Source: a virus | IMG/VR virus record: IMGVR_UViG_3300006805_003639 | Coordinates: 1 to 26,664 of that record | DNA length: 26,664 nt | Reading direction: 5' to 3' (one strand) | In this document: positions 1,854 through 22,967 of the stretch, one piece after another | How positions within the stretch are numbered: position 1 is the first letter of the stretch | Layout: each line of letters begins with the position of its first letter | Notes under the pieces: model-generated | What the model was told of the DNA's origin: nothing | The model's database searches: none | The model's input: the letters and a program-made list of their open reading frames with translations, nothing else | Translations under genes and position numbers: made by a program

Positions 1854-1856
1854 ATT
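1828..1856 (+). promoter_or_regulatory. Candidate repressor promoter inside the cro-like gene
   Basis: TTGCGG (1828-1833) and CATATT (1851-1856) are separated by 17 bases on the plus strand and would place a start about at the operator palindrome. Both boxes are only partial matches to a sigma70-type promoter. Because the divergent genes are only 30 bases apart, the repressor promoter must overlap the cro-like coding region, as proposed here. Weak evidence. Confidence 0.25.
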
Positions 1857-1860
1857 GAAC

Positions 1861-1876
1861 CTTCTAAACTTAGAAG
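1861..1876. promoter_or_regulatory. Operator-like inverted repeat between divergent cro-like and repressor genes
   Basis: CTTCTAA-AC-TTAGAAG is a perfect 7+7 inverted repeat that fills most of the 30-base gap between the two divergent starts (1853 leftward, 1884 rightward). Each arm reads AGAAG toward its own start codon, so the palindrome also supplies the Shine-Dalgarno of both genes: AGAAGG 6 bases before the ATG at 1853, and AGAAG 7 bases before the TTG at 1884. A related sequence, TTCTAAACTTGAACGTTCATT with one extra base at its left end, occurs at 2061 inside the repressor gene. Confidence 0.6.
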
Positions 1877-1883
1877 TTCATTC

Positions 1884-3272: not shown

Positions 3273-3299
3273 AGCCGCGCATCCGTGCGCGGCTTTTTT
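3273..3299 (+). terminator. Rho-independent terminator of the repressor operon
   Basis: A perfect 9-base stem AGCCGCGCA / TGCGCGGCT with loop TCCG (3282-3285) is followed directly by six T (3294-3299). It lies 21 bases after the stop of the secreted-protein gene and separates lysogenic transcription from the late control region. Confidence 0.9.
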
Positions 3300-3374: not shown

Positions 3375-3402
3375 CTTAACTGGCTGATCTGGCGCGGTGC
3401 GG
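3375..3402 (+). promoter_or_regulatory. Late-region repeat, copy 1 (before lysis/packaging genes)
   Basis: A 28-base element begins CTTAACTGGCTGATCTGGCG and ends CGGTG-[CT]-GG. It is identical to the copies at 8735 and 16756 except for one C/T position. Copy 1 starts 14 bases after the last of the three palindromes and 149 bases before the first gene of the lysis/packaging unit. It is not a conserved coding segment, because the reading frame is not kept after the element in the three copies. Candidate late promoter or activator site. Confidence 0.6.
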
Positions 3403-3550
3403 TTGGGGTGTGGGATGGGAAGATGAAGCGTTGGCACCGGGGCGCTGGGGTCAGCGGGGCTGCACTTCATTCCAAGGGCTTGGTGATGAGGTGCGGCTCT
3501 ACCCTCCGGCGCCGGTGCTTGTTGGATCTTCACCTTCACTCACGCTGCTC

Positions 3551-4306
3551 ATGAAACTGCTCTGCCTCCTCGCTCTTGCTCTCCTGTTTGCCGCTCCCTG
3601 TGTTTTTGCGCAGGACATTGATCCTGCGATTCAGCAGGCCATTACCAACGCGCTGCCACCGGCCTATGCGGGTTATGGGGCGCTGGCCCTGGTGGTGATC
3701 GCCGCTGTGTTTCGCTTCCTGACCGCCCGCAAGAACGGGCTCAGTGTGGTGGAGGCGATTCTTGCCACCTTGAAGGGCACGAACGTTCCCACGAAGATGC
3801 CGTTGCTGATGGGGTGCCTGTGCATGCTCTCGCTGAGTTCGTGTGCCACAAGCTCGGCGTTGATCGCTTCACCCTTTGGCCGCGCTCTCATCGCCACGGC
3901 GGATCAGCTGGGCAAGGCGGTCATTGAGACTACTCAGAAGGTCGGGCTTGAGCAGATCATTCTGCAAGCCTCTGCCAAAGTGTCCACGCTTAAGGCCGAA
4001 GGCATCAGTGCCGATCCTGTGAAGGAAATCCTGCGAGGCTCGCAGATCTCCGCCTTCACCGATGTCATTGAAGCCGCTCAAGCGAAGTATGAGCAGCTCA
4101 CGGGCAAGCGCTTCACACTGCCGAAGAATCCGGTGAAGGTGCTGTCGGTTAAGGTGCTGCCAACCGCCGCTGTGGAGCCGCGCCAGAACCGGCTGAAGCC
4201 GGTACTACAATACGAAGACGGCCCGGGCTGCATGCAGCTGGCTGAGAGGATCCCGCTGTATGGCGAGCGCGTGGCGTTCATGCTGAGCACTGGGGTGGTG
4301 AAGTGA
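3551..4306 (+). CDS. Membrane/lipoprotein fusion of the lysis region (holin-like N-part, lipoprotein-like C-part)
   Basis: 251 codons. N-terminal signal sequence MKLLCLLALALLFAAPCVFA-Q, a short periplasmic stretch, then a membrane segment GALALVVIAAVFRFL with a basic flank, as in small holin-like phage proteins. At residue 83 a second leader begins, MPLLMGCLCMLSLSSC, with a lipobox LSSC (Cys98) typical of lipoproteins. The rest is an Ala/Lys-rich helical domain (GRALIATADQLGKAVIETTQ onward) ending in a short tail. A REP-like hairpin is embedded in the 3' part of the gene at 4183. The internal ATG at 3797 could give a separate lipoprotein. The open frame also runs upstream to 3410, but the signal peptide fixes the start at 3551. 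The lysis role is inferred from position just before the endolysin. Confidence 0.75.
   Translation: MKLLCLLALALLFAAPCVFAQDIDPAIQQAITNALPPAYAGYGALALVVIAAVFRFLTARKNGLSVVEAILATLKGTNVPTKMPLLMGCLCMLSLSSCATSSALIASPFGRALIATADQLGKAVIETTQKVGLEQIILQASAKVSTLKAEGISADPVKEILRGSQISAFTDVIEAAQAKYEQLTGKRFTLPKNPVKVLSVKVLPTAAVEPRQNRLKPVLQYEDGPGCMQLAERIPLYGERVAFMLSTGVVK
4183..4213 (+). repeat. REP-like hairpin, family A copy 1, inside the lipoprotein gene
   Basis: A 31-base sequence with stem CCGGCT-GA-AGCCGG followed by TACTACAATAC. 27 of 31 bases match the copy at 15172. It is translated here as RQNRLKPVLQYE. The differences between copies preserve the stem. Confidence 0.7.
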
Positions 4307-4366
4307 GCGCTTATTTTTGGCAAGGGAATGAAGGCGCAAAGGAATGACTGAACTGAATCCGATCTT

Positions 4367-4831
4367 ATGACAGCGAATCAACGCATCTATCAGGCCGCGC
4401 TCAAGTATCGCGGCATCTGTGAAGTACCCGGGCCGAAGAGCAACAAGATCATCCAAGGATGGATCAAAGAAGCCGCGTCATGGCTGGGGGATGATGTGGG
4501 CAATGATGATTCCAAGGTGGCGTGGTGCGGCTGCTTCCGGGGCCACCTCGGCACGGAGACGATGACTGGCACGCCTGCTGCGTGCTATCGCGCTGCGAAC
4601 TGGATCAAGTGGGGCAAGGCCATCGACCCCAACAAACCCAAGACGTGGGAACAGGGAGACACGCTGATCTTCAAACGCGCTGGTGGTTACCACGTGACGC
4701 TGTTCGCGGACTTCACCAACTGCGGCCCGAAGAACGTGAACTGCCTTGGGGGCAACCAGAGCGACAAGGTCTGCATCGCTTCTCTTTCCTTGATGAACCT
4801 CCTCGGTGTGCGTCGTGCGCCTGATCTCTAA
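4367..4831 (+). CDS. Phage endolysin, TIGR02594-type (NlpC/P60/CHAP-like Cys-His hydrolase)
   Basis: 154 codons. The family pattern is complete: an E-x-P-G segment (CEVPGPKSNKIIQGWIKEA), catalytic-type Cys54 in VAWCGCF, then GTPAACYRAANWIKWGKAI, and EQGDTLIFKR leading to His109 in GGYHVTLF. It ends with the typical CLGGNQSDKV and LLGVRRAP closing strands. These phage proteins are taken to cut peptidoglycan peptide bonds. Length matches the family (about 140-160). No signal peptide is present, so release would need the membrane protein encoded upstream. It is the second gene of the lysis cassette. Family assignment is strong; the exact bond cut is not known. Confidence 0.85.
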   Translation: MTANQRIYQAALKYRGICEVPGPKSNKIIQGWIKEAASWLGDDVGNDDSKVAWCGCFRGHLGTETMTGTPAACYRAANWIKWGKAIDPNKPKTWEQGDTLIFKRAGGYHVTLFADFTNCGPKNVNCLGGNQSDKVCIASLSLMNLLGVRRAPDL

Positions 4832-4842
4832 CTCTTCTCATC

Positions 4843-5004
4843 ATGCTCTCTCTGCGCCCCTTCTACTCGCCAAACCTGTTTGCGATCGCAATCAGTCTTG
4901 GCGCGATTGTCTGTGAGGATGAGCGCTGCGGGCGTGTGCACGGCTGGGTGTTCACGCTGCAGTTCAGCTGGTGGGGACTTGAACTCGAATACATGCGCTC
5001 ATGA
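4843..5004 (+). CDS. Small hypothetical protein of the lysis cassette (53 residues)
   Basis: A short frame from ATG 4843 to TGA 5002-5004: MLSLRPFYSPNLFAIAISLG, then AIVCEDERCGRVHGWVFTLQ, ending WWGLELEYMRS. Its stop overlaps the start of the metalloprotease gene (ATGA at 5001), which supports translation. The aromatic-rich pattern with a C-x4-C pair resembles small phage proteins ending in W-x-[FL]-x-[IL]-E-[FY]. No function is assigned. It could be peripheral to the membrane, but the hydrophobic stretch is too short for a confident transmembrane call. Confidence 0.65.
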   Translation: MLSLRPFYSPNLFAIAISLGAIVCEDERCGRVHGWVFTLQFSWWGLELEYMRS

Positions 5005-5507
5005 TCACGCTCTACTATCACGCTCCCAAGGAACTGCTGCCGCTGGCCAGCAAAGCAGGCATGCAGTGGATGACTGCGCTGGGCAAGACGATGCAGAGTC
5101 CGGCTCTGGTGATGCTGGCGCCGGTGCCTTTGCGGCTGGCGAATGTAGTGATCAAATGGGGAGTGGTGGATCGTCGCCAGAATCCAGACCGTGTGGCGCA
5201 GCATGAGAAGCATGAAACGCGTTTGGATGCCAAGAGCACGACAACTCTGCACATCATCACTCTGGCGGATGATGTGAAATGGCGCATCAGCTGGTGGCAG
5301 AGGTTCATGGGGATCGGTGATGCGGATGCGCATGCCGCGCTGCTGCATGAGATGGGCCACGCGCTGGGCCTGCCGCACTCCGACCGTGAAAGCGATGTGA
5401 TGGCGCCGGATCTGGGCACGACGGTCATCAGTGACGATGAAGCGCAGCGCTACCGTGCCTTTCTTTCCCCGCGTCAAAACACCTTTGCTCCGCCTTTGAT
5501 TCCATGA
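5001..5507 (+). CDS. Matrixin-like zinc metalloprotease
   Basis: 168 codons. The zinc site is complete: H116-E-M-G-H120-A-L-G-L-P-H126, the H-E-x-x-H-x-x-G-x-x-H signature of metzincins, with Met134 in SDVMAPD as the Met-turn. The preceding segment (STTTLHIITLADDVKW, MGIGDADAHAAL) fits the strands before the catalytic helix. No signal peptide is present. It overlaps the small ORF upstream (ATGA) and the coiled-coil gene downstream (ATGATG), so it is translationally coupled in the lysis/packaging operon. Metzincins of this kind cut proteins. Possible targets are host envelope protein at lysis or a virion protein, both inferred. Family call strong, role open. Confidence 0.85.
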   Translation: MITLYYHAPKELLPLASKAGMQWMTALGKTMQSPALVMLAPVPLRLANVVIKWGVVDRRQNPDRVAQHEKHETRLDAKSTTTLHIITLADDVKWRISWWQRFMGIGDADAHAALLHEMGHALGLPHSDRESDVMAPDLGTTVISDDEAQRYRAFLSPRQNTFAPPLIP

Positions 5508-6025
5508 TGCTCGCTGGTTCACTCCCCGATATCTCCAAGGTGCCTGCGGACTTCACGCAGTGGTACATCATCCTGTCGTGCTTCTTCATCATGATCGGCA
5601 TCCAGGTGTTCAACACGATCTTCAACGTGTGGGACAAGCGCCAGACGAAAAAGGCGGAGATCAGCGGGACGATTGAGAGCACGCACCCGGTGCGGCATGC
5701 GGAGCAAACCGACCTGGACGAACTGACGAAAACCGTCAATGCGATGCGCGAGGAAATCACCGCGCAGTTTCGCGAGGCGCAAAGGTCCGGAGAGAACCGC
5801 GTGGCGGCGATCACCTCCGACGTGAACGATCAGATGCGCGTGCTGGGCACCAACGTGGCCCGACTGGGCGAGAACATCACCGCGGCGATGGTCGACAACG
5901 CCAAGCAGGGCGCGGAGATCACCGCGCTGCAGACTGCCGACTACCGCCATGACGGCGCCATCCAGCGCATTCAGCAAAACATTGCCGACCTGATGCGGCA
6001 CCCACCCAAACGCAGCGCCTCCTAA
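5504..6025 (+). CDS. Membrane-anchored coiled-coil protein (spanin-like candidate)
   Basis: 173 codons from ATG 5504 (or the adjacent ATG 5507), overlapping the metalloprotease stop. One membrane segment, WYIILSCFFIMIGIQVFNTI, lies near residues 20-40. It is followed by a basic stretch (KRQTKKAE) and a long coiled coil (ELTKTVNAMREEITAQFREA and onward to about residue 160). A single N-terminal anchor with a long coiled coil is the shape of i-spanins, but it is also the shape of many membrane-linked phage proteins. The basic residues after the segment suggest the coiled coil could instead be cytoplasmic, which would argue against a spanin. Position next to endolysin and before terminase is common in Mu-like phages. 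Confidence 0.7.
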   Translation: MMLAGSLPDISKVPADFTQWYIILSCFFIMIGIQVFNTIFNVWDKRQTKKAEISGTIESTHPVRHAEQTDLDELTKTVNAMREEITAQFREAQRSGENRVAAITSDVNDQMRVLGTNVARLGENITAAMVDNAKQGAEITALQTADYRHDGAIQRIQQNIADLMRHPPKRSAS

Positions 6026-6029
6026 GCCC

Positions 6030-6302
6030 ATGACACCGCAACAACACGAAAACGCCACCCGCGACTGGAGCCTTCCTTTGAGGCCCGTGATCCGCGAAAC
6101 CATGCAGCTCAAACCGGACACCCAGTGGACGGCGAAAAGCCTGCATGGTCTGATCAAGGCCGATTACTCCGACGCCACCGAGGTGGATGTGCGCAACGCG
6201 CTGCTGTGGAACCAGAGCAAGGGCTTTGTCGATTACACCTTCAATGCGCAGTTTGAACGCGATGAATGGTTTCTCACGGAAAGGGGGAAGTCTCAGGAAT
6301 GA
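6030..6302 (+). CDS. Small winged-helix-like protein before the terminase genes
   Basis: 90 codons. The layout is helix, helix, then a wing-like end: LRPVIRETMQLKPDTQWTAK, SLHGLIKADYSDATEVDVRN, ALLWNQSKGFVDYTFNAQFE and RDEWFLTERGKSQE. This fits a winged helix (W-T-A-x-x-L-x-x-x-I ... V-R-N-A-L-x-W-x-x-x-x-G-F) of the kind found in small Mu-like phage proteins upstream of terminase. Gap of 4 bases to the upstream gene; its stop overlaps the start of the next gene (ATGA at 6299). Could be a regulator or a packaging DNA-binding protein. No firm family. Confidence 0.65.
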   Translation: MTPQQHENATRDWSLPLRPVIRETMQLKPDTQWTAKSLHGLIKADYSDATEVDVRNALLWNQSKGFVDYTFNAQFERDEWFLTERGKSQE

Positions 6303-6895
6303 GCACTGATCCCACACGCAAAGTCAATCCACGTGCCAAGCTCAAGCTGCTGCCTGAAGACATACAGGAAAAGCTTTTCGAGCAGGTTGAAAGCTCGACT
6401 CTTGAAGAGACGCTGGAGTACGTGCGTGAAGAACTTCAGATCACGATTGGCCGCACAGCCCTGGCTGACTGGGCGGCGTGGTATCGGCGGCGTGAATGGA
6501 TCAAGGATGCTGAGAGTGATGCCGCTGAGATGGAAGACATGCTCAAGCGCAGCGGCCTGCAGCTTGGGCCTGAAGCGATCTCTGCCGTGGCTAATGCGGT
6601 GTTCTTGAATCGTGCCTCCAAGATGGGAGATGCCAAAACCTTCGTGGCCACTGCCGGCGTGATCCAGCGCAGCCAGGAGCTGCAAAGCAGCCAGAGCGCG
6701 CACAAGGACAAGATGGAAGTGGCGCACAAGAAGCTGGAGCTGCAGCAGCAAGATCAGGTGCGCAAAATGAAGGAGCTGGAAATGAAGGTGGCCGAATTTG
6801 AGCGCAAGGAAACTGAGACCAAGGATGACCTGAGCAATCCCCAACTCACCGAAGAACAACGCGCAACGCGGATGCGTGAACGCTTTGGCGTCTGA
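6299..6895 (+). CDS. Mu gp27-like small terminase subunit
   Basis: 198 codons from the ATG overlapping the upstream stop; the open frame extends 11 codons further back without support. N-terminal helix-turn-helix-like part: LKLLPEDIQEKLFEQVESST then LEYVREELQITIGRTALADW, followed by AAWYRRREW. This matches the DUF3486 (Mu gp27) order of L-P-x-x-[IV]-x-x-x-L and a DNA-recognition helix. The C-terminal half is a long charged coiled coil (KLELQQQDQVRKMKELEMKV) ending ATRMRERFGV. It lies directly before the large terminase (3-base gap), as gp27 precedes gp28 in Mu. It would recognise phage DNA at packaging initiation. Family call good by context and pattern. Confidence 0.75.
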   Translation: MSTDPTRKVNPRAKLKLLPEDIQEKLFEQVESSTLEETLEYVREELQITIGRTALADWAAWYRRREWIKDAESDAAEMEDMLKRSGLQLGPEAISAVANAVFLNRASKMGDAKTFVATAGVIQRSQELQSSQSAHKDKMEVAHKKLELQQQDQVRKMKELEMKVAEFERKETETKDDLSNPQLTEEQRATRMRERFGV

Positions 6896-6898
6896 CCC

Positions 6899-8491
6899 AT
6901 GAGCAAGTCCACAGCACAGCGTGATGCGATGGAGCGGCTGCGGGGGAACCCGGAGCCCAAGGCTTCCTTGAAGCACGCGGATCTGGCGTGGGAGAAGCTC
7001 ATGCGGGCGGTGGCCGATGCGCTGGCCTGGCCGAATGCGACGGTGAGCGCGAAGATCGAGGAGCTGAAGCAGATCTTTGAGCGGATCAAACCCGGGGAGA
7101 ACTGCAATGGCTGGGTGAATCCCTTCCCGCGTGATGACCCGCGATCGCTGATGAAGCAGTACCAGTTCGTGAGCTTTTGCGACACGCATCAGTTCATCAT
7201 GGACATCTGGAGCCGCCAGACGGGCAAGGATCACACGCTTGCCCTGGTGGCCTCCACAGACTGCTACTCACGCAAGACGCAGTGGACGATTGCGGCGCCG
7301 TCTGAGCGGCAGTCTTTGGAGTCGCTGGAGAAGTGCAAAGACATGGTCCTGGCGTTTGGCGATGTGATCGCCGACTTCCGTGAAGAGCGCGAGCACCCGG
7401 AGGCGCTGATCAAGAGTTCGATGATCACGCTGCCAAACGGGTCGCGGATCCGCGCTGTGCCGGGCATGCCGCACACGGTGCGTGGTCTGACATCCAACGT
7501 GGGCATCACGGAGGCGGACTTCCTCGAACAGCCGAAGGAAACCATGCGCGCCTTGCTGGGCTCGCTGGCCAATGAAGAAGCCGGCAGAAAGAACATCCGC
7601 CTCATCACGACGCCGAACGGCAAGAACGGGATGACGTACAAGATTTGGAATGATGCCGAGAGCATCTACTCCAAGCGGCTGGTGACGATCTGGCATGCGG
7701 TGTGCATGGGCCTGAAGCAAAACCCGGCCGTGCTAGAGAAGGCGCTGGATGATCCGGAGGGCTGGGCACAAGAGTTTCTGTGCGAGTGGCTGGACGGCAG
7801 CGCGGTGCTGCTGAGCTATGAGCTGATCCAGAGCTGTGAGAGCTTTGAGGCCAGCGAGTTTTGCAGCGTCGAGGAACTCGCAGCGCGGCAGCTTTCCAAA
7901 GTGGCCGGGGTCGACTTCGGGCGCATCAGTGATCCCACGGTGATGACCATCGCCGAGAAGGGCTTGGATTTGCGCCTGGTCAAACACATTGCACGGCTCA
8001 AAGGCATGAGCACGCCAGACCAGGTGGAAGTGCTGCTGCCCTATCTGCGGCTGTGTGATCGCATCTGCGTCGACTACACGGGGCCGGGCATCGGCTTTGG
8101 TGACATGCTCGTCAAAGAACTCAAGCGGTGGGATCCTGAGAAGCATGAGTTTGGCAAGGTGGAGCTGTGCACCTTCACGCTGCCTTTGAAGCGGCAGATC
8201 TTTCCGGCGCTGCGGCTGGCCTTTGAGCGGCGGCAGTGGCGGATCCCGGTCAGCATCTGGCTGCGTGAGGATCTGCACTCGATGTCGCAGGTGATCACCA
8301 ACGGGCAGTACAACTACAAGGCACCGCGCAGCGATGACGGCCACAGCGACGGCTGCACCTCGCTGGCTTTGTGTGAGCGGGCGGCGGGCGGTGAGAGCAG
8401 TCCGTTTGGTTTTGAGTCCACGCCGCGAGACTGGGAAGGCGGGCGGGAATATGAGAGTGAAGGGAGCCGGGGGCGCAGCCTGATTCTTTGA
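6899..8491 (+). CDS. Mu gp28-like large terminase (ATPase-nuclease)
   Basis: 530 codons. Packaging motor ATPase followed by an RNase H-fold nuclease. Walker A-like SRQTGKDHT at residues 105-113 (K110). Walker B position NVGITEADFLEQP (E205), where the usual acidic residue before the Glu is Thr204. Coupling-type motif LITTPNG at 235-241. Nuclease acids D339 (GVDFGRISD), D392 (VDYTGPG) and D484 (GHSDGCTS). These residues and the length fit the gp28 group of Mu-like terminases. The large subunit drives headful packaging and cuts DNA, partnered by the gp27-like protein. It is followed by a hairpin (8511-8536) and a 300-base non-coding region, so it closes the lysis/packaging unit. Confidence 0.92.
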   Translation: MSKSTAQRDAMERLRGNPEPKASLKHADLAWEKLMRAVADALAWPNATVSAKIEELKQIFERIKPGENCNGWVNPFPRDDPRSLMKQYQFVSFCDTHQFIMDIWSRQTGKDHTLALVASTDCYSRKTQWTIAAPSERQSLESLEKCKDMVLAFGDVIADFREEREHPEALIKSSMITLPNGSRIRAVPGMPHTVRGLTSNVGITEADFLEQPKETMRALLGSLANEEAGRKNIRLITTPNGKNGMTYKIWNDAESIYSKRLVTIWHAVCMGLKQNPAVLEKALDDPEGWAQEFLCEWLDGSAVLLSYELIQSCESFEASEFCSVEELAARQLSKVAGVDFGRISDPTVMTIAEKGLDLRLVKHIARLKGMSTPDQVEVLLPYLRLCDRICVDYTGPGIGFGDMLVKELKRWDPEKHEFGKVELCTFTLPLKRQIFPALRLAFERRQWRIPVSIWLREDLHSMSQVITNGQYNYKAPRSDDGHSDGCTSLALCERAAGGESSPFGFESTPRDWEGGREYESEGSRGRSLIL

Positions 8492-8510
8492 GCCGGGGCA
8501 TCGGGGAAAA

Positions 8511-8536
8511 CCTGACCTTGGCACCAAACGGTCAGG
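8511..8536 (+). terminator. Hairpin after the terminase gene, possible terminator
   Basis: Outer stem CCTGACC / GGTCAGG with an inner TTGG-CA-CCAA stem and a small AC bulge. It has no T-run after it, so it may be a factor-dependent terminator or an RNA-processing hairpin rather than an intrinsic one. Confidence 0.45.
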
Positions 8537-8734
8537 AAGGCTTAAACACCCCCATTCCGCTACTCTGACGCCACCCACCCCCCGAAAACGCGCCAGATAC
8601 CGCTTAAAAACCCGACAGACCTCTTAAATATCGGGAGTGTGATGCCGGGAATGCGGTTGGGGCATTTCGGGCCGGGGTCGGGGTCGATGCTCCCCGGGGC
8701 TCGGTTTGGGCTCTGAACACCTTATTAAGACGGT

Positions 8735-8762
8735 CTTAACTGGCTGATCTGGCGCGGTGTGG
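8735..8762 (+). promoter_or_regulatory. Late-region repeat, copy 2 (before the portal gene)
   Basis: Same 28-base element as at 3375 and 16756. Its first bases CTTAA form the right arm of the perfect palindrome TTAAGAC-G-GTCTTAA (8725-8739). It ends 30 bases before the TTG start of the portal gene, so a transcript starting within or after it would carry a very short leader. Confidence 0.65.
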
Positions 8763-8792
8763 TGGCAGAAACGGTGAGCGATTGAATGGGCC

Positions 8793-10307
8793 TTGAGCAC
8801 CACCGACGCCATCACTGAAAACCTTGCACTGAGCTGGAAGCAGCAGCGGTTCAATCCGCTGCAGGGTGTGACGCCTCCAGGGGTGGCATCCATACTGAAC
8901 GGGTTTGATCGGGGTATGATGCGTGAGGCGGCCCTTGTCTGGGATGAGATGATTGAGAGGGATGATACTCTTTCGGTTTGCGTTCCCAAATACATCGACC
9001 AGGTGTCATCGCAGCCTTGGGACGTTTTGATTGGTGAGGAAGTGCCCGATGAACTACATGCAGAGGCGGAGCGCCATCAGTCCGTTTTAAAACACTTCTA
9101 TTCCAATCTTGGTTATGAAGATGCCTTAGATCGAAATTTCGAGGGTGATATTGAGATGGTGATCCGCCGCACGATTCAGGCCCGATTCTATCGTTACAGT
9201 GTGCAACGCATCATCTGGCAGCCTTCTGTAGATGGCATTACGGCCACTGCTCGTTACTGCAATCTTGCTTTGTTTGACAATACGACCGGTAAAATTCGCT
9301 GGTCGGGTGTGGAAGGTACGACGCCGGGCCAAGAAATCACCGACCCAGAAAACTGGCTCATTGCCGCCAGCGACCGGTGTCTGATGAAGGCACTCTCCAT
9401 CTGCTACATCTATAAGCGCCTGCCGATGCAGGACGCGCTCAACTTCTGCCAGCGCTTTGGGATTAATGCGGTGCATGGCGAGACCAGCGCGAAGCCAGGC
9501 TCCAAGGAATGGGACGAATTTGTGCGGGCGCTGCGGTGCTTTGCCAATGATATGACCATCGCCACAACTTTGGGCGACAAGTTCAACATCCTCGAAAACC
9601 CTGCTGCCAATGGTGAGCAAGTATTTGGCTGGGTCATTGAAGTGATGAAGCGGGCAATGGTGACTATTTCTCTCGGCAGCGATCTTAAAACCATGAGCCG
9701 TCAGGATGGCACAGGGGCCAGTTTGCAAGCTGATGATGGTGATTTGATGACAGCAGCAGGATGTCGCTTTGTGACGGGTATATTCAACCGTCAGCTCGAC
9801 CGCCGCATCATTGAAGACCAGTTCGGCACCGGAGTGAAGCCGCTGGCGTTCTTCAAGCTGATCCCGCCGCAGAACGAAGACGCGGAGCTGGAGATGAAGA
9901 TTGACGAGCACGTGACGAAGCATGGCGTCGTGCTGGATCCCGATGACGTGGCGGAACGGTTCAACCGCACGAATGCCGGCAAAGGTGACAAGGTGCCAAG
10001 CAAGGCACCTGTGAAGTCTAAGCCCGTTCCCCTGGCGGATGCTGCCAATGAAGCACTGAACGCGCTGGAGCGCAGCGAGCTGGAAAGCTTCAAGCGCGGC
10101 ACTGACAAGGACAGCGCGCCGTTGATCCGATTCCTCAAGCCGGTGGTGGATGCGCACGGTGCGGACGCCACGCGCAGCTCACTGCTCACACTGCAAGCCA
10201 ACCTCGATCAACTGGAAACCGAAACCATCGACCAGGGCGCGAGCACGCAGGCCCTGGAGGTCAGCGTCGCCACCGAGCTGCTGCGCGCCCTGGCTGGTGC
10301 TGCCTGA
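8793..10307 (+). CDS. Mu gp29-like portal protein (DUF935)
   Basis: 504 codons from TTG 8793. In-frame stops lie just upstream and no ATG fits the N-terminus MSTTDAITENLALSWKQQRF. Family features: an early ALVWDEMIERDDTLSVCVPK segment, SSQPWDVLIG, the conserved core of Mu-like portals in TIQARFYRYSVQRIIWQP, and AASDRCLMKALSICYIYKRL with a following ALNFCQRFGINAVHG. The C-terminal half contains SLGSDLKTMSRQDGTGASLQ and ends in an Ala/Glu-rich helical region. The portal forms the dodecameric DNA gate of the head and docks the terminase. It is the first gene after the second late repeat. Confidence 0.9.
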   Translation: MSTTDAITENLALSWKQQRFNPLQGVTPPGVASILNGFDRGMMREAALVWDEMIERDDTLSVCVPKYIDQVSSQPWDVLIGEEVPDELHAEAERHQSVLKHFYSNLGYEDALDRNFEGDIEMVIRRTIQARFYRYSVQRIIWQPSVDGITATARYCNLALFDNTTGKIRWSGVEGTTPGQEITDPENWLIAASDRCLMKALSICYIYKRLPMQDALNFCQRFGINAVHGETSAKPGSKEWDEFVRALRCFANDMTIATTLGDKFNILENPAANGEQVFGWVIEVMKRAMVTISLGSDLKTMSRQDGTGASLQADDGDLMTAAGCRFVTGIFNRQLDRRIIEDQFGTGVKPLAFFKLIPPQNEDAELEMKIDEHVTKHGVVLDPDDVAERFNRTNAGKGDKVPSKAPVKSKPVPLADAANEALNALERSELESFKRGTDKDSAPLIRFLKPVVDAHGADATRSSLLTLQANLDQLETETIDQGASTQALEVSVATELLRALAGAA

Positions 10308-10328
10308 ACATTCTCTGAACCCGATCTT

Positions 10329-11642
10329 ATGAAACGCACCTCCATCCTTCAAATCATCCTCACCAGCATTGCGAGGCCTTCACGCAAACGTGTGTTCATG
10401 GCCGCCAATGACGCCACAGAGCCGGAGATCATGGCCGTGAATGATCAGTCCTTCGGCGTGGAGACCGGAGGCGTGATGATTGTGCCGTTCCAAGAAAAGG
10501 AGGTCAATGTCTCCATCGGTGGCCGGCAGATGCGCGGACTGCAGCGCATCGACGCGGAAGCAGGCAACTCCATGGCGGCGGATCTCGGCAGCCTGGCGAG
10601 CAAGTTTAAGCGGCTGTTTGTGAATCCGCCGATCTTCAGCGGGCATCCCTTCCATCCCAATGCCGAGGTGGCGAAGAAATATCCCGATCGCAAACTGCGC
10701 GGATCCATTGTGTCGATCGAAGTCGCCAATGAGACCGTGCGACTGATCCCCAAGTACAACAAGCTGGGCAAGGAAGAGGTCGAAGACGGTCAGCTTTTGT
10801 TTCACAGTCCGCAGTGGCGCATGGAACCTGTCATGGCCGCCAATGGTGCGCAGGAAATCAAAGGCGGACTGCCCGTGTTCAGGCCGGTGTCATTGCACAG
10901 CGGCGGATTGACCAATGATCCCAACCTTGAAGTGCCGCCCGTGATGGGGGCCAATGATGCCGCAGGCGGCAGCATCGACATCAGCAAGCTGCTGGCGCCG
11001 TTCATCGCAGAAGGCTTCATCAAGGCCGATGATGACGAAGCCATGATGCTGGGGGCGATCAACGCCTTTGTGCAGGACATCAAGTACGCCCGGGAGCGCA
11101 AGGCGCAGATGGAAGCGGATCTGCTGCGCCTGAAAGCCGCGCAGCCGGATGCGGCCAATGATGCCAGCTATGAAGTGCTTCTTGAGGGGCTCTTGAAAAA
11201 GGTGGAAGTCATGGCCGCGAACGAAGCCACGGCCGCCAATGAGAAGGCCGATGTGGAAGCGCGATTCAAGGCGGCACGCACCTCACGTGTCAGCGCTGCC
11301 GTGGCAGATCTGATCGAACGCGGCCATGTGACCAATGCCAACGCTGAAACGCTGCGCACCGAACTCATCGAAGCCGCGAATGAAGAAGCGATCGATGAGC
11401 GCCTGCAGGAGCTTGCCAAGACGAAGCCCAGGCTTGGGCTTGGCGGTGGCCCAACCGATGCGCTGAAAGGCGTCAAGAAGATGGTGATGGCCGCCAATGA
11501 GCAGAGCGAAGGCAACCGCCTGCGCACCGAGGCCGTGCATGCCTGCCTGCGTGAAATCACCCAAGGCAAAGCCGCGCAGCCCGGAGACCAGGAGAAGGCC
11601 TGGAACCTCGCCCGCAGCCGCAATCCCACACTCTTTGCCTGA
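10329..11642 (+). CDS. Mu gpI-like prohead protease with C-terminal scaffold domain
   Basis: 437 codons. After a 23-residue basic/hydrophobic leader (MKRTSILQIILTSIARPSRK) comes MAANDATEPEIMAVNDQSF. The protease part has FSGHPFHPN (His106, His109), LFHSPQWRMEP and VFRPVSLHSGGLTNDPNLEV, matching the gpI order of a Pro/His strand, a Y/F-x-S-P strand and L-x-S-x-x-L-T-N-x-P. From about residue 225 it becomes helical, charged scaffold. M-[AG]-[AV]-N-[DEG] occurs at residues 24, 35, 159, 206, 285 and 377, plus further AAN[DE] at 265, 292 and 339. In Mu the scaffold Z is read from an internal start of gene I. Here Met285 (MAANEATAANEKADVE) is a candidate for the same. Lies 21 bases after the portal gene. 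Confidence 0.85.
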   Translation: MKRTSILQIILTSIARPSRKRVFMAANDATEPEIMAVNDQSFGVETGGVMIVPFQEKEVNVSIGGRQMRGLQRIDAEAGNSMAADLGSLASKFKRLFVNPPIFSGHPFHPNAEVAKKYPDRKLRGSIVSIEVANETVRLIPKYNKLGKEEVEDGQLLFHSPQWRMEPVMAANGAQEIKGGLPVFRPVSLHSGGLTNDPNLEVPPVMGANDAAGGSIDISKLLAPFIAEGFIKADDDEAMMLGAINAFVQDIKYARERKAQMEADLLRLKAAQPDAANDASYEVLLEGLLKKVEVMAANEATAANEKADVEARFKAARTSRVSAAVADLIERGHVTNANAETLRTELIEAANEEAIDERLQELAKTKPRLGLGGGPTDALKGVKKMVMAANEQSEGNRLRTEAVHACLREITQGKAAQPGDQEKAWNLARSRNPTLFA

Positions 11643-11652
11643 CCTACATGAG

Positions 11653-11676
11653 GCGGGCAGGAGTGCCCGCGCTCCC
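11653..11676 (+). repeat. REP-like palindrome, family B copy 1
   Basis: GCGGGCA-GGAG-TGCCCGC followed by GCTCCC. The copy at 14107 differs in the loop (GAG, one base shorter). This looks like an extragenic palindrome common in Verrucomicrobia and Planctomycetes chromosomes. It lies in the 90-base gap between the protease and cement genes. Confidence 0.65.
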
Positions 11677-11732
11677 CTCCCAATCCCCGGCGCACGCCGG
11701 ATCAAACAAACCGCAACCGTAAACACACACAC

Positions 11733-12335
11733 ATGAAATCGAAACGCTACATGCGCAATCAACTCACCGGCGTGCTCGCAGTCTTCTGCAGCGCTCTGGC
11801 CATCGCCTCCCAGTGGCTCCTTGGAGCTTCATCCAGCTGCCTTGCTGCCAACACCTATGACGCCGCTGTGGACATTCACTGCGAGTCTTTGACCCGCACG
11901 AATGATGCCGCTGTCTCCACGCGCCATCTCCTGTGGAAAGAAGGTGCCACCCCCGGCAAAACGGTGGCTCTCTGCGGCGCTGCCAACGCACCTCTGGGAA
12001 CGGTGGACAACATTGAATCCGCCACGGGCGCATACCAAAAAGTCATTCTGCTTGGCAAAGAGCAGACGGTCAAAATGGTGGCATCCGCAGCCATCGCCAT
12101 TGGCGCGAATGTTTACACGGCGGCGAATGGCAAGATCCAAGACGCCACCACGCTCACGGCGGGATCCTACTATCATGTGGGACGCCTGCTCACTGCGGCT
12201 GGCGCTGATGGTGATGTGGTCGAGGTCGAGAGCATCGTGCCAAGGAAAGTCAACGTGGTCGCCAACGCCGCCAACCTCGCGACCACGCAGGCTGCGATGC
12301 TGGATGGTGCGATCGTCATCGTCCTTGGTGCTTGA
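11733..12335 (+). CDS. Head decoration/capsid cement protein (DUF2190-like) with N-terminal leader
   Basis: 200 codons. From residue 40 the sequence NTYDAAVDIHCESLTRTNDA, then LLWKEGATPGKTVALCGAAN, matches small capsid cement proteins (DUF2190), which usually start close to that point. Later parts fit too: KMVASAAIAIGANVYTAANG and SYYHVGRLLTAAGADGDVVE, ending VIVLGA. The 39 residues before it are a signal-like hydrophobic leader (GVLAVFCSALAIASQ) ending SSSCLA-A-N. Such proteins trimerise on the capsid surface to stabilise it. Located between protease/scaffold and major capsid, as in related phages. The leader is unusual for the family and suggests processing. Confidence 0.75.
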   Translation: MKSKRYMRNQLTGVLAVFCSALAIASQWLLGASSSCLAANTYDAAVDIHCESLTRTNDAAVSTRHLLWKEGATPGKTVALCGAANAPLGTVDNIESATGAYQKVILLGKEQTVKMVASAAIAIGANVYTAANGKIQDATTLTAGSYYHVGRLLTAAGADGDVVEVESIVPRKVNVVANAANLATTQAAMLDGAIVIVLGA

Positions 12336-12433
12336 TCCGCCTTTTCCTAAACCCTCACGGATCTCTGAATTAGCAAGCTGACCCCACGCCCCGACTGCCT
12401 GCCCTCAATCACGAATCCTTCTTCTCCATCCTC

Positions 12434-13543
12434 ATGAAATTCAATCTCTCCTTCATCGTGCTCGCATCCATGTATGCACAGCGCGCCTTCTCCAGCGGCC
12501 CGATGGCCGTCAATGAACGCAGCTTCACCAAAGACCCGGGCATGGATGCCTCCAAGTCCGGTGAAACCTACGCCGCCAATGATGGCGACATCGAGGCCGC
12601 CTGGAAAAGCGGCAACGAGTTCACCGCCGCCAATGATGGCAATCTCAGCGCCACACCGATGGGCCTGAGCCAGGCGCTGTCACAATACGCGGCCGGCGTC
12701 TCCGACTCTGAGAACCTGCAGGCGCTGCTTGACCGCATCGCCCCGCCCACACCTGTGGGTGCCATCCGCTTCACCTACGGCCTCGAAACCGAGTCCGAGG
12801 AATTCCAGAAGCGCACGCTGGCCAACATCACGCGCCCTGTGCATGGCGAGTTCCCAGAACTCAAGATCACCGGCTCTGAAGCTGAAGGTCGCTGCAACAA
12901 CATTGGTCTGGTATCCTATCTGGACCTTGACCAGGGCGGCGCACTTCCGCAGATGCAGCAGCTCGAAGTTCAGCGCCTGCGCAACATCATTCTGCGCAGC
13001 CAGATTGCTGATGCGCTCGCGCTCATTGACGCCGCCGCCAGTGCCGACACCGGCATGAACTGGGGTGCTTCTGGTGCGGATCCTGACAGCGACGTGGATG
13101 ACATGGTCGATGCCGGTGGCCGCGCTTCTGGTGTCGACAACAACATCGTCGTCTTTGGCCGTGGCAGCTTCATGAAGCGCCGCCGCAGCTACCGCAAGGA
13201 AAGCCGCACGAACGGCGGTGAGCATGCGATCCTGACCCCCGACCAGCTGCGCGATGTGTATCAGGTGGATGATGTCATCAACCTGCGCACGCTTTACCGC
13301 AGCAGCAGCACCGCAAACACCGCGCTGCTCGACAACACGCTCTACACCTATGATGCGCGTCCGGGCCTGTCCCTCAAGGACAGCAGCAACATCAAGCGCA
13401 TGACGTATGTGGCCGCAGGCGGCGCAACCCGCGTGTGGATCACGGTGGGCACGCACCGCGTGAAGATCACCGTGGACGCCTACGCCGTGAACAAGATCAC
13501 GCGCAGTGTCGGCATCCGCAAACGCGCTGTCACGTTCAGCTAA
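12434..13543 (+). CDS. Major capsid protein with N-terminal leader and Ala-Ala-Asn repeats
   Basis: 369 codons. Placed directly after the cement gene and followed by a strong hairpin, as expected for the most expressed head gene. N-terminus: a 23-residue leader (MKFNLSFIVLASMYAQRAFS), then MAVNERSF, nearly the same as MAVNDQSF of the protease. TYAAND and FTAAND follow at about residues 46-50 and 64-68. The capsid-like body includes LDQGGALPQMQQLEVQRLRN, ALIDAAASADTGMNWGAS, a GRGSFMKRRRSYRKESR segment, and DPQ-free strands at the C-terminus (ATRVWITVGTHRVKITVDAY). It is not obviously related to Mu gpT but fits HK97-fold coat proteins in size and position. Identity inferred mainly from context. 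Confidence 0.75.
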   Translation: MKFNLSFIVLASMYAQRAFSSGPMAVNERSFTKDPGMDASKSGETYAANDGDIEAAWKSGNEFTAANDGNLSATPMGLSQALSQYAAGVSDSENLQALLDRIAPPTPVGAIRFTYGLETESEEFQKRTLANITRPVHGEFPELKITGSEAEGRCNNIGLVSYLDLDQGGALPQMQQLEVQRLRNIILRSQIADALALIDAAASADTGMNWGASGADPDSDVDDMVDAGGRASGVDNNIVVFGRGSFMKRRRSYRKESRTNGGEHAILTPDQLRDVYQVDDVINLRTLYRSSSTANTALLDNTLYTYDARPGLSLKDSSNIKRMTYVAAGGATRVWITVGTHRVKITVDAYAVNKITRSVGIRKRAVTFS

Positions 13544-13566
13544 GCTTTGAGCTAAGCGTTCAAACC

Positions 13567-13596
13567 CTGCGCACTCCGTGAAAGCGGAGTGCGCAG
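13567..13596 (+). terminator. Strong hairpin after the capsid gene
   Basis: A perfect 12-base stem CTGCGCACTCCG / CGGAGTGCGCAG with a six-base loop TGAAAG lies 23 bases after the capsid stop. There is no T-run after it, so it may attenuate transcription or protect the capsid mRNA 3' end, raising capsid over downstream connector expression. Confidence 0.6.
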
Positions 13597-13641
13597 TCTT
13601 GAGCGAAAGCCACATCAACGCCACACCCACCCACCACCGCC

Positions 13642-14088
13642 ATGATCAACAAAGAAACCATCGACGAACTCAAGAAAAGCCACTCTGAAATCTTTGCCGC
13701 CAAGATGAGCGTGCTGAAAGATGAGCAGGTGGTGGCATCCGTCATACTTGCGCAGATCGAGCAGGACAAACTTAATCCACCGGAGAATGCTGCGAAGAAT
13801 ACGGTGCGCAGTGCCGCGGCGGTGGTGATCACCCACATCGAGCGTGCTAGTCTTGCCAAGGGTGAGCTGGATAAAGTCGTGCAGTCTGTTCTTGCTCAAT
13901 TTCCAAGTCTTGACCTCAGCGATGTGCTGAACTTGCAACTGCCAACAGCCGAGTCTGTTCCATCCTACCAGGCTGATTTAAAAGCCGCTCAAGATCTCCT
14001 CAAGAAGATCGGTGAGTGTGGCAGCATCAAGGATGTGCGCGAGCTGCTCAAGGCGGCGGATCCGCAGCCGGCTGCTGAAAGCAAGTAA
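13642..14088 (+). CDS. Hypothetical helical head-region protein
   Basis: 148 codons: MINKETIDELKKSHSEIFAA at the start, then a largely helical sequence (VVASVILAQIEQDKLNPPEN, VVITHIERASLAKGELDKVV) ending with LLKKIGECGSIKDVRELLKA and a polar tail. No family is recognised. It stands between major capsid and the gp36-like connector, where head-tail joining or chaperone proteins are often found. Its base composition is slightly less G+C-rich than its neighbours. The start follows the capsid hairpin by 45 bases. Confidence 0.65.
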   Translation: MINKETIDELKKSHSEIFAAKMSVLKDEQVVASVILAQIEQDKLNPPENAAKNTVRSAAAVVITHIERASLAKGELDKVVQSVLAQFPSLDLSDVLNLQLPTAESVPSYQADLKAAQDLLKKIGECGSIKDVRELLKAADPQPAAESK

Positions 14089-14106
14089 CCGCCGAGCCTC
14101 CAATCA

Positions 14107-14129
14107 GCGGGCAGAGTGCCCGCGCTCCC
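14107..14129 (+). repeat. REP-like palindrome, family B copy 2
   Basis: GCGGGCA-GAG-TGCCCGC followed by GCTCCC, matching the copy at 11653 apart from one loop base. It ends only 10 bases before the ATG of the connector gene and could mask its ribosome-binding region. Confidence 0.65.
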
Positions 14130-14139
14130 TTCTTGAATC

Positions 14140-14589
14140 ATGGCCTGGATCACTCCCACTCTCGACAGCTGCAAGCGGCGCATTCCCAAGGAATGGCCGG
14201 CGCTTTCCAGTGCTGCCAGGCAGCAGGGGGAAGATGCGGACACGATTGGGCAGGAAGTGATCGACACGCAGGTGACGAAGATCCGGGGCCGTGTGCCGAT
14301 GCACGTGCCCCTGGGGGAAGCCGGGACGATCCCGGATGAGATGCAGGATTCGTTCTTTGCGCTCTGGGTGTACGGCTTCATCACCAAGCTGCCAGGGATG
14401 AAGTCATTGCTGGATGAGCTGCGGGTGAAGGCCTGGGAGAATGCCAATGCGGAGCTCACAGCGCTGTCAGGTGGCAAGATCCAGCTCGTGCCACCGGTGA
14501 CGGCGGCGCCGGACAATGAGCAGGCCGCAGGGCCGGGCATCGAAGTGGCGCATGAAGCGCGGCCGGTGCAGTCGTTTGCCGGCCTTTAA
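14140..14589 (+). CDS. gp36-like head-tail connector protein (DUF1320-like)
   Basis: 149 codons. The N-terminus MAWITPTLDSCKRRIP and a helical body DADTIGQEVIDTQVTKIRGR, followed by LGEAGTIPDEMQDSFFALWV, match the Mu gp36-type proteins (an I-T-x-x-D-L opening, then V-x-E-[VI]-R-G and G-T-I-P-D-E-L). The C-terminus (KAWENANAELTALSGGKIQL and after) is flexible and Pro/Ala-rich. These proteins sit at the portal exit and join head and tail. Position after the capsid is normal. Confidence 0.75.
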   Translation: MAWITPTLDSCKRRIPKEWPALSSAARQQGEDADTIGQEVIDTQVTKIRGRVPMHVPLGEAGTIPDEMQDSFFALWVYGFITKLPGMKSLLDELRVKAWENANAELTALSGGKIQLVPPVTAAPDNEQAAGPGIEVAHEARPVQSFAGL

Positions 14590-14601
14590 ACCAAGCCCGT
14601 G

Positions 14602-14844
14602 ATGAAACCTGAAATCAGAGCCCTCTGTGAAACCCTCGGTCTGCGCCTGTTCGATGCGTCGGACCTGAGCCGCGAAGGATCATGGATCTTTGAGTCCCAG
14701 GGGAAGCAGTGCCTGATTGAAGTCTCGTATGATGCGCAGCCCAAGGATGTGGCGGAGCTGCTCTTCAAAGCAGGCAGCAAACAGACGCGGCAAGGCCTGT
14801 GCGATCGCTTCAACGGTTTCGTGAATGCTCTGAACGAAAAATGA
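14602..14844 (+). CDS. Hypothetical small protein, head-tail region
   Basis: 80 codons from ATG 14602; a GTG three bases before it is an alternative. Sequence: MKPEIRALCETLGLRLFDAS, then LSREGSWIFESQGKQCLIEV and LLFKAGSKQTRQGLCDRFNG. The alternation suggests an alpha/beta fold with two helices. No family recognised. Compact spacing (12 bases after the connector, 4 before the next gene) supports co-translation. Confidence 0.6.
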   Translation: MKPEIRALCETLGLRLFDASDLSREGSWIFESQGKQCLIEVSYDAQPKDVAELLFKAGSKQTRQGLCDRFNGFVNALNEK

Positions 14845-14848
14845 CGCC

Positions 14849-15220
14849 ATGGACGCCATCATCACGGATCATGCGTTTGAGCGCTGCAAGGAACGCTGCG
14901 GCTGGAAGCACGATGCCGCGCAGCGCATGGCCACGCTGGCCCTGAATGAGGGGATCAGGCACGCGGACACCAAGGGTGCGCTGAAGCGCTACGTGGACGG
15001 CATCTACCTTTCTGAGCGCAATGCCAACAACGTGCGCATCTATGGCCGCCATGTGTTTCTGTTTGCCGGTGTGTGCCTCGTCACGGTGCTGCATCTCGAT
15101 CATCAGCATGTGCGGGCGGTGGAAGATTTGAGCGGCCGCAAGAAGGCGCAAAAAGCGGCAGGCACCGGACCCCAGAACCGTCTAAAGACGGGACTACAAT
15201 ACACAGAACCGGAAGCATGA
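14849..15220 (+). CDS. Conserved hypothetical protein resembling a small Firmicutes family
   Basis: 123 codons. The core ITDHAFERCKERCGWKHDAA, then LALNEGIRHADTKGALKRYV, then NANNVRIYGRHVFLFAGVCL and VTVLHL, follows an order I know from small Firmicutes proteins of unknown function (T-x-H-A-x-x-R-x-K-E-R-x-G ... A-x-E-x-G-I ... N-x-R-I-Y-G-x-x-[VI]-F-[LI]-F ... L-[IV]-T-V). Its presence inside a phage head operon of a presumed Verrucomicrobium is unexpected. The last codons come from a REP-like hairpin (15172-15202), so the C-terminus may have been extended by it. Its stop overlaps the next start (ATGA at 15217). Confidence 0.7.
   Translation: MDAIITDHAFERCKERCGWKHDAAQRMATLALNEGIRHADTKGALKRYVDGIYLSERNANNVRIYGRHVFLFAGVCLVTVLHLDHQHVRAVEDLSGRKKAQKAAGTGPQNRLKTGLQYTEPEA
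15172..15202 (+). repeat. REP-like hairpin, family A copy 2, at the 3' end of the small conserved gene
   Basis: Stem CCGTCT-AA-AGACGG then GACTACAATAC. Compared with 4183, the stem pair G-C has become T-A on both sides, so pairing is kept. Translated as PQNRLKTGLQYTE just before the stop. Confidence 0.7.
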
Positions 15221-16158
15221 AGATCTCCACCACAGAACCCTTGTTTCAAGCGCTCAAGCTGGCGCAGGAGCGCGGGTTGCTGCCGACAGCGCTTAGCAGT
15301 GCTGAACTGCAGGAGATGACGCTGCGGATGAAGGAGCGTGTGTTCTTTGCGGCGCGGTGGACGAACCTGCAGGCGCTGGATGAAGTCAAAAAACTGGTGG
15401 AGCGGCATGTGCAGGGCGAGGGCATGAACAATGACCTGGCCAAGCTTCGCATCGAGGCGCGGCAGATTCTGGCGAAGCATGGCTATGATCCTGAAAGCGG
15501 TTTCCCAGGTGATGTGGAGCTTGGCGTCCCACCCGCGACAGCCGGCTCTTTGCGCGATCTGAGCAGTGGCAAGCGGCTCAACCTGATCTTTGAGACACAG
15601 GCCGCCCTGGCCCGGGGGCTGGGCATGAAGCTGCGCAACCTGCAACGGCAGCAGGTTTTTCCAGCGATCGAACTTGTGAGGCTCAAGGATGCGCGCCAGA
15701 TCGACTGGCAGCGCGACTGGCTGGCACGCTGGAAGATCGCGGCTGATAACGTCGACTGGGTGGGAGTCTCCAAAGAGGCCTTTGCACAGGGGCGAATGAT
15801 CGCACTGCAGACATCCCCCATCTGGCCTGCGCTTGGGAGCAGTGCGTTGTTTGCCGATGCGCTGAACGTCGACTATCCGCCCTTCGCGTTCAACAGCGGC
15901 ATGGGCTGGCGCTTTGTGGGATTTCGTGAGAGCGCGACTTGGGGCCTCAACCAGGAAGAGATACCCGCCGCGGCTGCTGCGGATCCAGCCACGGCGGTGC
16001 GCACGTATGCCAAGACTTTGGGCAGTGCGCTGAGCGACACTTTGAAGAATGGGATCCGCAAGGCTCCGACCACGAGCGCGCCAGATCCAGAACGGCTGCA
16101 GCGGCTGCTCAAGCTGCGTGAGAAGTTCAACGCGATCACCGCCAAACGAGGATACTGA
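15217..16158 (+). CDS. Putative minor head/head morphogenesis protein (MuF-like position)
   Basis: 313 codons from ATG 15217, which overlaps the previous stop; the open frame extends 48 codons back without support. Helical N-terminal half (RMKERVFFAARWTNLQALDE, LAKLRIEARQILAKHGYDPE). Middle: RLNLIFETQAALARGLGM, then VFPAIELVRLKDARQIDWQR and WLARWKIAA. C-terminal: ALQTSPIWPALG, YPPFAFNSGMGWRFVGFRES. The P-A-x-E-L-x-R ... R-D-W ... S-P-I-W ... P-P-F-x-F-x-S-G-M order is one I associate with phage minor head proteins. MuF usually lies next to the portal, so its place after the connector would be a rearrangement. Moderate certainty. Confidence 0.55.
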   Translation: MKISTTEPLFQALKLAQERGLLPTALSSAELQEMTLRMKERVFFAARWTNLQALDEVKKLVERHVQGEGMNNDLAKLRIEARQILAKHGYDPESGFPGDVELGVPPATAGSLRDLSSGKRLNLIFETQAALARGLGMKLRNLQRQQVFPAIELVRLKDARQIDWQRDWLARWKIAADNVDWVGVSKEAFAQGRMIALQTSPIWPALGSSALFADALNVDYPPFAFNSGMGWRFVGFRESATWGLNQEEIPAAAAADPATAVRTYAKTLGSALSDTLKNGIRKAPTTSAPDPERLQRLLKLREKFNAITAKRGY

Positions 16159-16160
16159 TC

Positions 16161-16760
16161 ATGCCCGGACTTGAGATCACCCTCGAATTCAAAGGCGACA
16201 CGAAGCTGAGTCTGCTGGAGAAGGAAATGAAGTTTCCTGAGAAGCTGGAGTTTGCCGATGCGGTGGCAGCCAACATCGAGGAGCTGACGCGCAAGCATAT
16301 TTCCACAGCGGCACAAACAAGGCACAAGACGGCCACCAGGCTGGGTGCGACGCCGACGCAGTACCTGCTCAACAAAGCGGCGAGCGTGGAAGCGATCGGC
16401 GCACCAGGGCGGGTGCTGTTAAGCGTCTCTGGAGACATCTTCAAGCGCACCTTCAATCCGGTGACGGTGTCGGCGGTGAATGCGAAGATGCTGACCATCC
16501 CCGTAGCCGCAGAGAGCTATGGCAAGCGGGCGGGTGAGTTCGGGGATCTGTTTGTGTACAAGAGCAAGGGCGGCGCGGGGCCGGCCTTTCTGGCGCGGCG
16601 TGAAGGGAAAACGATGAAGTTTCTCTTCATGCTCAAGCGCAGCGTGGTGCTGCCGCAGGATCGGGGATTACTGCCGGGTGAAGAGGACTTCTTCAAGAGC
16701 GTCGAGCAGACGGCGGATGACCATCTTGAGCTGATGACCAAGCGGCTGGCTGAGTCTTAA
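16161..16760 (+). CDS. gpG-like tail completion/virion morphogenesis protein
   Basis: 199 codons, 2 bases after the previous gene. Contains LEFADAVAANIEELTRKHIS, then TATRLGATPTQYLLNKAASV, VLLSVSGDIFKRTFNPVTVS and IPVAAESYGKRAGEFGDLFV. This order (helix, T-P-x-x-Y/F, a strand pair, I-P-x-x-A-x-x-Y-G) resembles the gpG/phage virion morphogenesis family that completes the head-to-tail joint. The stop codon TAA (16758-16760) lies inside the third copy of the late repeat, so gene end and control element overlap. Confidence 0.6.
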   Translation: MPGLEITLEFKGDTKLSLLEKEMKFPEKLEFADAVAANIEELTRKHISTAAQTRHKTATRLGATPTQYLLNKAASVEAIGAPGRVLLSVSGDIFKRTFNPVTVSAVNAKMLTIPVAAESYGKRAGEFGDLFVYKSKGGAGPAFLARREGKTMKFLFMLKRSVVLPQDRGLLPGEEDFFKSVEQTADDHLELMTKRLAES

Positions 16761-16783
16761 CTGGCTGATCTGGCGCGGTGTGG
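16756..16783 (+). promoter_or_regulatory. Late-region repeat, copy 3 (before the tail genes)
   Basis: Same 28-base element as at 3375 and 8735. It carries the stop of the gpG-like gene and runs into the GTG at 16780 that would start the next gene. A second CTGGCTGA lies immediately upstream (16746-16753), giving a direct repeat with the one inside the element (16761-16768). If transcription starts in this element, the real start of the next gene is more likely a TTG or GTG further down (16804 or 16813). Confidence 0.65.
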
Positions 16784-17568: not shown

Positions 17569-17612
17569 TTTTCCAAACCCACCCACCCTAATCCGAACAC
17601 CACCCCTCCTCT

Positions 17613-18560: not shown

Positions 18561-18582
18561 ACCTGAACCCGGGTGTGCTGCC

Positions 18583-18753: not shown

Positions 18754-18756
18754 GCC

Positions 18757-21488: not shown

Positions 21489-21500
21489 ACCCCTTTTTTT

Positions 21501-22907: not shown

Positions 22908-22967
22908 CCGTCATGACTCTCTTTGCCACCTCGGCGCAAAATTGAAGCCTCCTGAATTGATACCACA

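Follow-up and report, generated by a model that had tools for sequence, protein, structure and literature searches.

What is the role of three nearly identical copies of a 28-base element that stand ahead of the lysis/packaging, portal-head and tail genes of a Mu-like virus? The copies lie in IMG/VR record IMGVR_UViG_3300006805_003639, a fragmentary record of 26,664 bases that was analysed as a whole (the window). A preliminary description of this DNA had interpreted them as the sites of one regulon (promoters or activator sites), at which a late regulator not described before would act, and this proposal is supported by the sites of related phages and by searches of host genomes. Our analysis makes it probable, though by no means certain, that the copies are late promoters of one regulon which is switched on by an early winged-helix protein of the HTH_17/excisionase-like type. 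New beyond the earlier proposal are the 9-bp direct-repeat architecture of the element, its phage-specific sequence, the candidate BldC/excisionase-like protein and the evidence against a Mu Mor/C system.

Within the window the element (CTTAACTGGCTGATCTGGCGCGGTGYGG) occurs three times, always on the plus strand (Table 1). Base 26 is the sole position that varies over the 28 bases (C, T and T), and between copies 2 and 3 the identity extends to 30 nt; coordinates, strand and the variable base agree with the preliminary description. With the 21-mer core as query and up to 3 mismatches allowed, exactly 3 matches were obtained, whereas 100 shuffles gave 0.00 on average. The window has neither a fourth copy nor one on the minus strand. 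The TAA stop codon of the open reading frame (ORF) 16161–16760 sits inside copy 3, in keeping with the earlier remark that one copy includes the stop of the preceding gene. The genes following the copies were likewise assigned correctly to lysis/packaging, portal-head and tail functions, and the portal matches Pfam family Portal_Mu (1.6e-37). Relative to the portal start, the copies are located 5,418 and 58 nt before and 7,963 nt after.

Six related Mu-like phages of Verrucomicrobia each contain 2–3 copies of their own, different 24–34-mer; these stand where lysis, head and tail units begin and in every case lie on the coding strand. The seven phages thus have seven different elements, with three copies in the window, L007, L041, L053 and G001:C81, and two in L004 and G153. 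L007, a prophage in a metagenome-assembled genome (MAG) of Prosthecobacter, was found by a portal search (portal 75% identical to that of the window) and has three perfect copies of the 28-mer CTGACATCTGGTCGTCCTGGTCAGGTGC, two of them upstream of its portal start (by 5,636 and 60 nt) and the third 7,773 nt downstream of it. Profile searches of Verrucomicrobia genomes yielded L041 (genome G030), with TGCACGACGGGCACTTCGGGTCAGGTGCG at −4,680, −72 and +8,175 from the portal start, and L053 (G038), with GCGGYAAAGGCGGSTAAGGCGGGGTG at −5,091, −101 and +7,850. Viral contig L004 (terminase 77% identical) carries AGCGAAGRGGGCAAAGGGGGACGTGA twice, at −70 and +7,974, the lysis end being off the contig. 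The prophages G153:C12 and G001:C81 were found via a search with the winged-helix protein (see below) and then examined for repeats; the former has two perfect copies of CATCCACGTCATGCACGTCATGCAGCGTGATCGG, 5' of the lysis block and 5' of the head protease, and the latter three copies of CCARACGYGCCAGATGCGCGACGTGAAG, 5' of the lysis block, the portal and a tail-tube-like gene. The third copy in G001:C81 is displaced one gene downstream and the head copy in G153 stands 3' of the portal, which indicates that the element tracks unit boundaries and no particular gene. Overall, the Mu-like placement described before, with one site recurring where the lysis, head and tail genes start, applies to the window and its relatives alike.

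Copies scattered through the host chromosome, a concern raised earlier, were not found: genome-wide counts (6–7 Mb) gave exactly 3 copies, all in the prophage, for the elements of G001, G030, G038 and G001:C81. In principle, the copies could have no part in regulation and belong to an intergenic repeat dispersed through the host genome, or to a small mobile repeat. Verrucomicrobia genomes do have such repeats, and one of them (27 near-copies in G034) precedes a related portal; this look-alike was dropped from the set. A host-repeat origin of the elements is nevertheless hardly credible, since those of the four prophages are not found elsewhere in the genome and stand at unit starts only, on one strand, and since the matching sites of the seven phages differ in sequence. 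The near-copies of the G034 repeat (AAAGGGTCCGCTTGGGTCCGTTG) include C94:3126–3148, and other, different simple dispersed repeats were seen at the L005, L006, L050 and L051 loci.

The element was not found in L005 (terminase 60%) or L006 (terminase 44%), and no such repeat was present in 20 class-level loci with more distant portals or in most order-level loci. The element therefore appears to be limited to the clade of the window, as judged from a partial sampling of genomes. A scan of the viral contigs with the exact element pattern gave no other record, and searches of these contigs with portal profiles, a third gene of the window and two more terminases gave no relatives. One MAG (G001) holds two related prophages with different elements; provided that this MAG is not mixed, this points to a specificity carried by the phage.

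When aligned at their 3' ends, all seven elements have the same plan, in which a pair of direct repeats, spaced with a period of 9 bp, precedes SGTG. The pattern is CTGG-N5-CTGG-N3-GGTG in the window and L007, the repeat is CGGG in L041 and AAGG in L053, and analogous repeats are found in the others; the repeat unit is constant inside one element and varies between phages. The longest runs at lag 9, summed over the seven elements, amounted to 44; composition-preserving shuffles (20,000) averaged 13.4 and did not exceed 26. In a test for dyad symmetry, the elements reached at best 3–6 of 10 pairs, while the site of a Mor-encoding Mu-like phage reached 8 of 10. Four Mu-like proteobacterial phages, taken as outgroups, did not contain any comparable direct-repeat element.

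The surroundings of the elements would suit a transcription start. An intrinsic terminator was found 5' of copy 1 in each of the six phages in which this copy is visible, with gaps of 10, 13, 13, 17, 46 and 75 nt (75 nt in the window, 10–46 nt in the five relatives), and the first start codon lies about 20–36 nt 3' of SGTG. In four phages the terminator is only 10–17 nt away from copy 1, which leaves no space there for an upstream promoter. With a terminator just before and a start codon just after the element, the layout suggests that the late transcript should begin in or very near it. That window-type elements belong to one late regulon is strongly supported, and from their surroundings we infer that transcription starts at them. 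A sigma70 −10 (TATAAT-like) box at a fixed offset was not found in the 19 copies from seven phages; at the best offset the matches average 2.1 of 6, and this offset coincides with start codons. The lack of visible sigma70 boxes, noted earlier for the window, thus holds for the relatives as well.

The elements stand near transcript starts and on a single strand, with the G-rich/GTG strand always being the coding strand, which would also suit sites acting in RNA, or as pause/loading sites, in transcripts begun upstream (processive antitermination or mRNA processing). We consider this unlikely, because copy 1 comes after and not before the terminator, so that the four phages with the short gaps offer little room for a start further upstream. 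Moreover, the double 9-bp repeat better suits a DNA-binding protein, no shared hairpin was recognised by eye and the dyad scores are low.

In phage Mu, the late promoters Plys, PI and PP are controlled by activator C, a member of the Mor/C family. The phages studied here are similar to Mu in having Mu-type portal and head genes and, in the relatives, transposases A and B, and in that copies of one site open the lysis, head and tail units. Unlike Mor/C sites, however, the element is made up of direct repeats without a dyad, and no −10 box follows at a fixed distance downstream. A Mor/C-family protein (PF08765) was not found in the window, which is a fragment, nor in G001, G030, G038 and G153, with a control genome scoring positive. 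The repeat search itself was controlled with the Mor-encoding Pasteurella phage AFS-2018a (L149), in which it returned the palindrome TTTAAAGCRCTTTAAA 5' of the lysis, protease, tail and baseplate genes (four to five copies; 9609, 16819, 22250, 28202, 30289); these palindromes are probable C-type activator sites. Given that no Mor/C-family protein was found, the elements were not assigned to the Mu late-activator system, although the layout works alike.

An HTH_17-type protein is the only early-region protein common to all six phages with an early region (G030, G038, both G001 prophages, G153 and the window). It has a length of 131–159 residues (142 in G153, from the likely start); only the start of the gene is present in the window. 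Transposase A was found in all five phages with complete early regions. Among 387 order-level genomes, strong matches to the winged-helix protein were confined to the three element-bearing genomes then known and to two prophages that later proved to carry elements. A match to TIGR01764 was obtained for three of the six members (best 1.5e-4); the cut-off of the curated NCBIfam model HTH_BldC was not reached, one of six members matching with an E value of 0.027. The AlphaFold model, built on two sequences, is a winged helix with a mean predicted local distance difference test score (pLDDT) of 61.8 and values of 80–87 in the domain core. Foldseek gave no confident match with this shallow model. 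Structural realignment ranked the Xis protein of Pukovnik first (Z 6.2), and the BldC-DNA complex 6amk was likewise among the top matches (Z 5.6, 1.3 Å over 51 residues), with the aligner's caution that Z values of this size can stem from a common arrangement. From the co-occurrence in six phages, the shared 9-bp period and the similarity in fold, we infer that the winged-helix protein binds and activates the elements.

BldC of Streptomyces, a MerR-like protein, binds head-to-tail to 9-bp direct repeats on a site of ~22 bp (PMC5859096; PMC11963761). The candidate shares the winged helix with BldC, and the 9-bp direct-repeat layout of the element matches BldC sites. It differs in being an early phage gene product with a longer C-terminal tail that has a DLF/DF motif, and in the GC-rich, phage-specific sites. 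The similarity to HTH_17/TIGR01764 and the top rank of Pukovnik Xis relate the protein also to the Excisionase/Cox/RdfS group, of which RdfS oligomerises head-to-tail and activates promoters (PMC11963761). Unlike the sites of excisionases, copies of the element were found only at late unit starts. The phages appear to be transposable, as judged from their Mu-type transposases, and a role in excision with a tyrosine recombinase is therefore not expected.

According to the mechanism that we propose, each copy would provide a recognition plus start region, by which the lysis/packaging, head and tail genes are turned on together. The small winged-helix protein would be made from the divergent early operon and bind each site in a BldC-like manner, as a head-to-tail pair with one protomer per 9-bp direct repeat. 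The bound protein would then recruit or activate the host RNA polymerase at SGTG, the constant motif next to the repeats, and a short leader would be transcribed ahead of the first start codon, 20–36 nt downstream. As the divergent early operon is presumably shut by the lysogenic repressor, an activator role seems likelier than a repressor role.

Several points weigh against this assignment. The similarity of the elements showed no clear correlation with that of the proteins (15 pairs from six phages). HTH_17 was detected in five of the six members, in one of them above the Pfam cut-off, and the matches to Pfam and NCBIfam are mostly below cut-off; the structural model is shallow and its Z scores are middling. 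The protein could act in early control instead. The regulator of the window is incomplete because the record is a fragment, and the count of copies in host genomes covered four prophages, with the window and L004 outside it.

A distinctly less likely alternative is that the elements are late promoters read by another factor, such as an unrecognised sigma-like protein, an RNA polymerase specificity subunit or an unrelated phage regulator. The arguments for promoters stand without the winged-helix protein, the missing −10 box would fit a factor that replaces sigma70, and every phage has more small early genes of no assigned function. However, no second early-region regulator was found in all phages. 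A sigma54 reading (GG-N10-GC, TGGCAC/TTGCA boxes) was not supported on inspection, as the spacing varies across the seven elements. The elements do resemble promoters of T7-like RNA polymerases in being self-contained (~23–28 bp) and in differing from phage to phage while hardly varying within one, but the architecture of a direct repeat plus SGTG is unlike that of such promoters; besides transposase A, the early regions listed show no ORF of RNA polymerase size, a search with a dedicated profile not having been made.

Stoperators are, in their general layout, phage-specific, asymmetric and oriented repeated sites. The elements recall this layout by their specificity, asymmetry and orientation at unit starts, and the window encodes a CI-like repressor; they might accordingly be operators or stoperators through which the lysogenic repressor silences the late units in the prophage. 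This possibility has a slim chance at best: in none of the phages does a copy lie close to the repressor or the early promoter, the G030 phage has the element and yet no homologous repressor was seen there, and the G038 and G001:C97 phages have different elements although their repressors share 55% identity.

Near the C-terminus of the winged-helix protein, a DLF-type peptide was observed (QLDLF, GDLF, GDLF, PDLF and, in G038, FDF; L007:229-705:-, G030, G038, G153, G001:C81). Such peptides resemble sliding-clamp binding motifs. In phage T4, late transcription is coupled to replication via gp45, gp33 and gp55. A speculative extension, which we hold to be quite unlikely, is that the BldC/excisionase-type protein serves as a late promoter-specificity factor that works without a −10 box, and that its DLF peptide docks on the host sliding clamp and thereby couples late transcription to replication.

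Detailed knowledge of late-gene switches is confined to a limited set of model phages, and a literature search did not reveal a paper describing late promoters or a late-gene switch for Verrucomicrobia phages. The site varies strongly between relatives and is constant within a phage, with its placement being fixed, so that these phages offer a natural series for the co-evolution of a regulator and its site. With this system one can also test directly if a protein of the BldC/excisionase type can be a late transcription activator, and if GC-rich promoters that lack a −10 box can be used for initiation by bacterial RNA polymerase.

Table 1. Positions of the element copies and of other features in the window.
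Feature	Position	Strand	Remarks
Element copy 1	3375–3402	+	opens lysis/packaging unit; CTGGC at 3380–3384 and 3389–3393 (9-bp period), GGTG at 3396–3399
Element copy 2	8735–8762	+	58 nt 5' of portal start; repeats at 8740–8744 and 8749–8753, GGTG at 8756–8759
Element copy 3	16756–16783	+	opens tail unit; repeats at 16761–16765 and 16770–16774, GGTG at 16777–16780
Candidate regulator gene, 5' part (88 codons)	1–264	−	HTH_17/excisionase-like winged helix; cut by record end
CI-like repressor	1599–2579	+	HTH_3 and Peptidase_S24; lysogeny control; weighed as rival binder
Intrinsic terminator	3273–3299	+	hairpin 3273–3294, AGCCGCGC-ATCCGT-GCGCGGCT, T-run to 3299; ends upstream unit, 75 nt 5' of copy 1
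Lysis/packaging unit after copy 1	3410–8491	+	conserved lysis-region genes, terminase 6899–8491; start of first gene uncertain
Portal-head unit after copy 2	8793–16760	+	Mu-type portal, protease, major head protein
Tail unit after copy 3	16780–26487	+	mechanical GTG start at 16780 falls within element

The true start of the first tail-unit gene is probably downstream of the GTG at 16780. Its protein (window 16780–17568) has an Fn3-associated/chitobiase C-terminal domain (PF13287, PF13290), which is unexpected at this position. In the protease and major head protein genes (window 10394–12641), repeated GCCGCCAATGA stretches encode AAND/AANE motifs, and similar stretches are present in L007; these motifs are perhaps cleavage sites or assembly motifs. 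About 30 nt 3' of copy 1 a GGTGCGCTTAGCCGTGCTT-like stretch is found that is common to L007, L053 and G001:C81, and which is possibly a leader feature of the lysis unit. Finally, at their left ends, the G038 prophage and both G001 prophages carry, on the opposite strand, a DNA adenine methylase-like gene that is 79–87% identical between them; the remaining early genes of these prophages mostly show much lower similarity, which suggests recent exchange.

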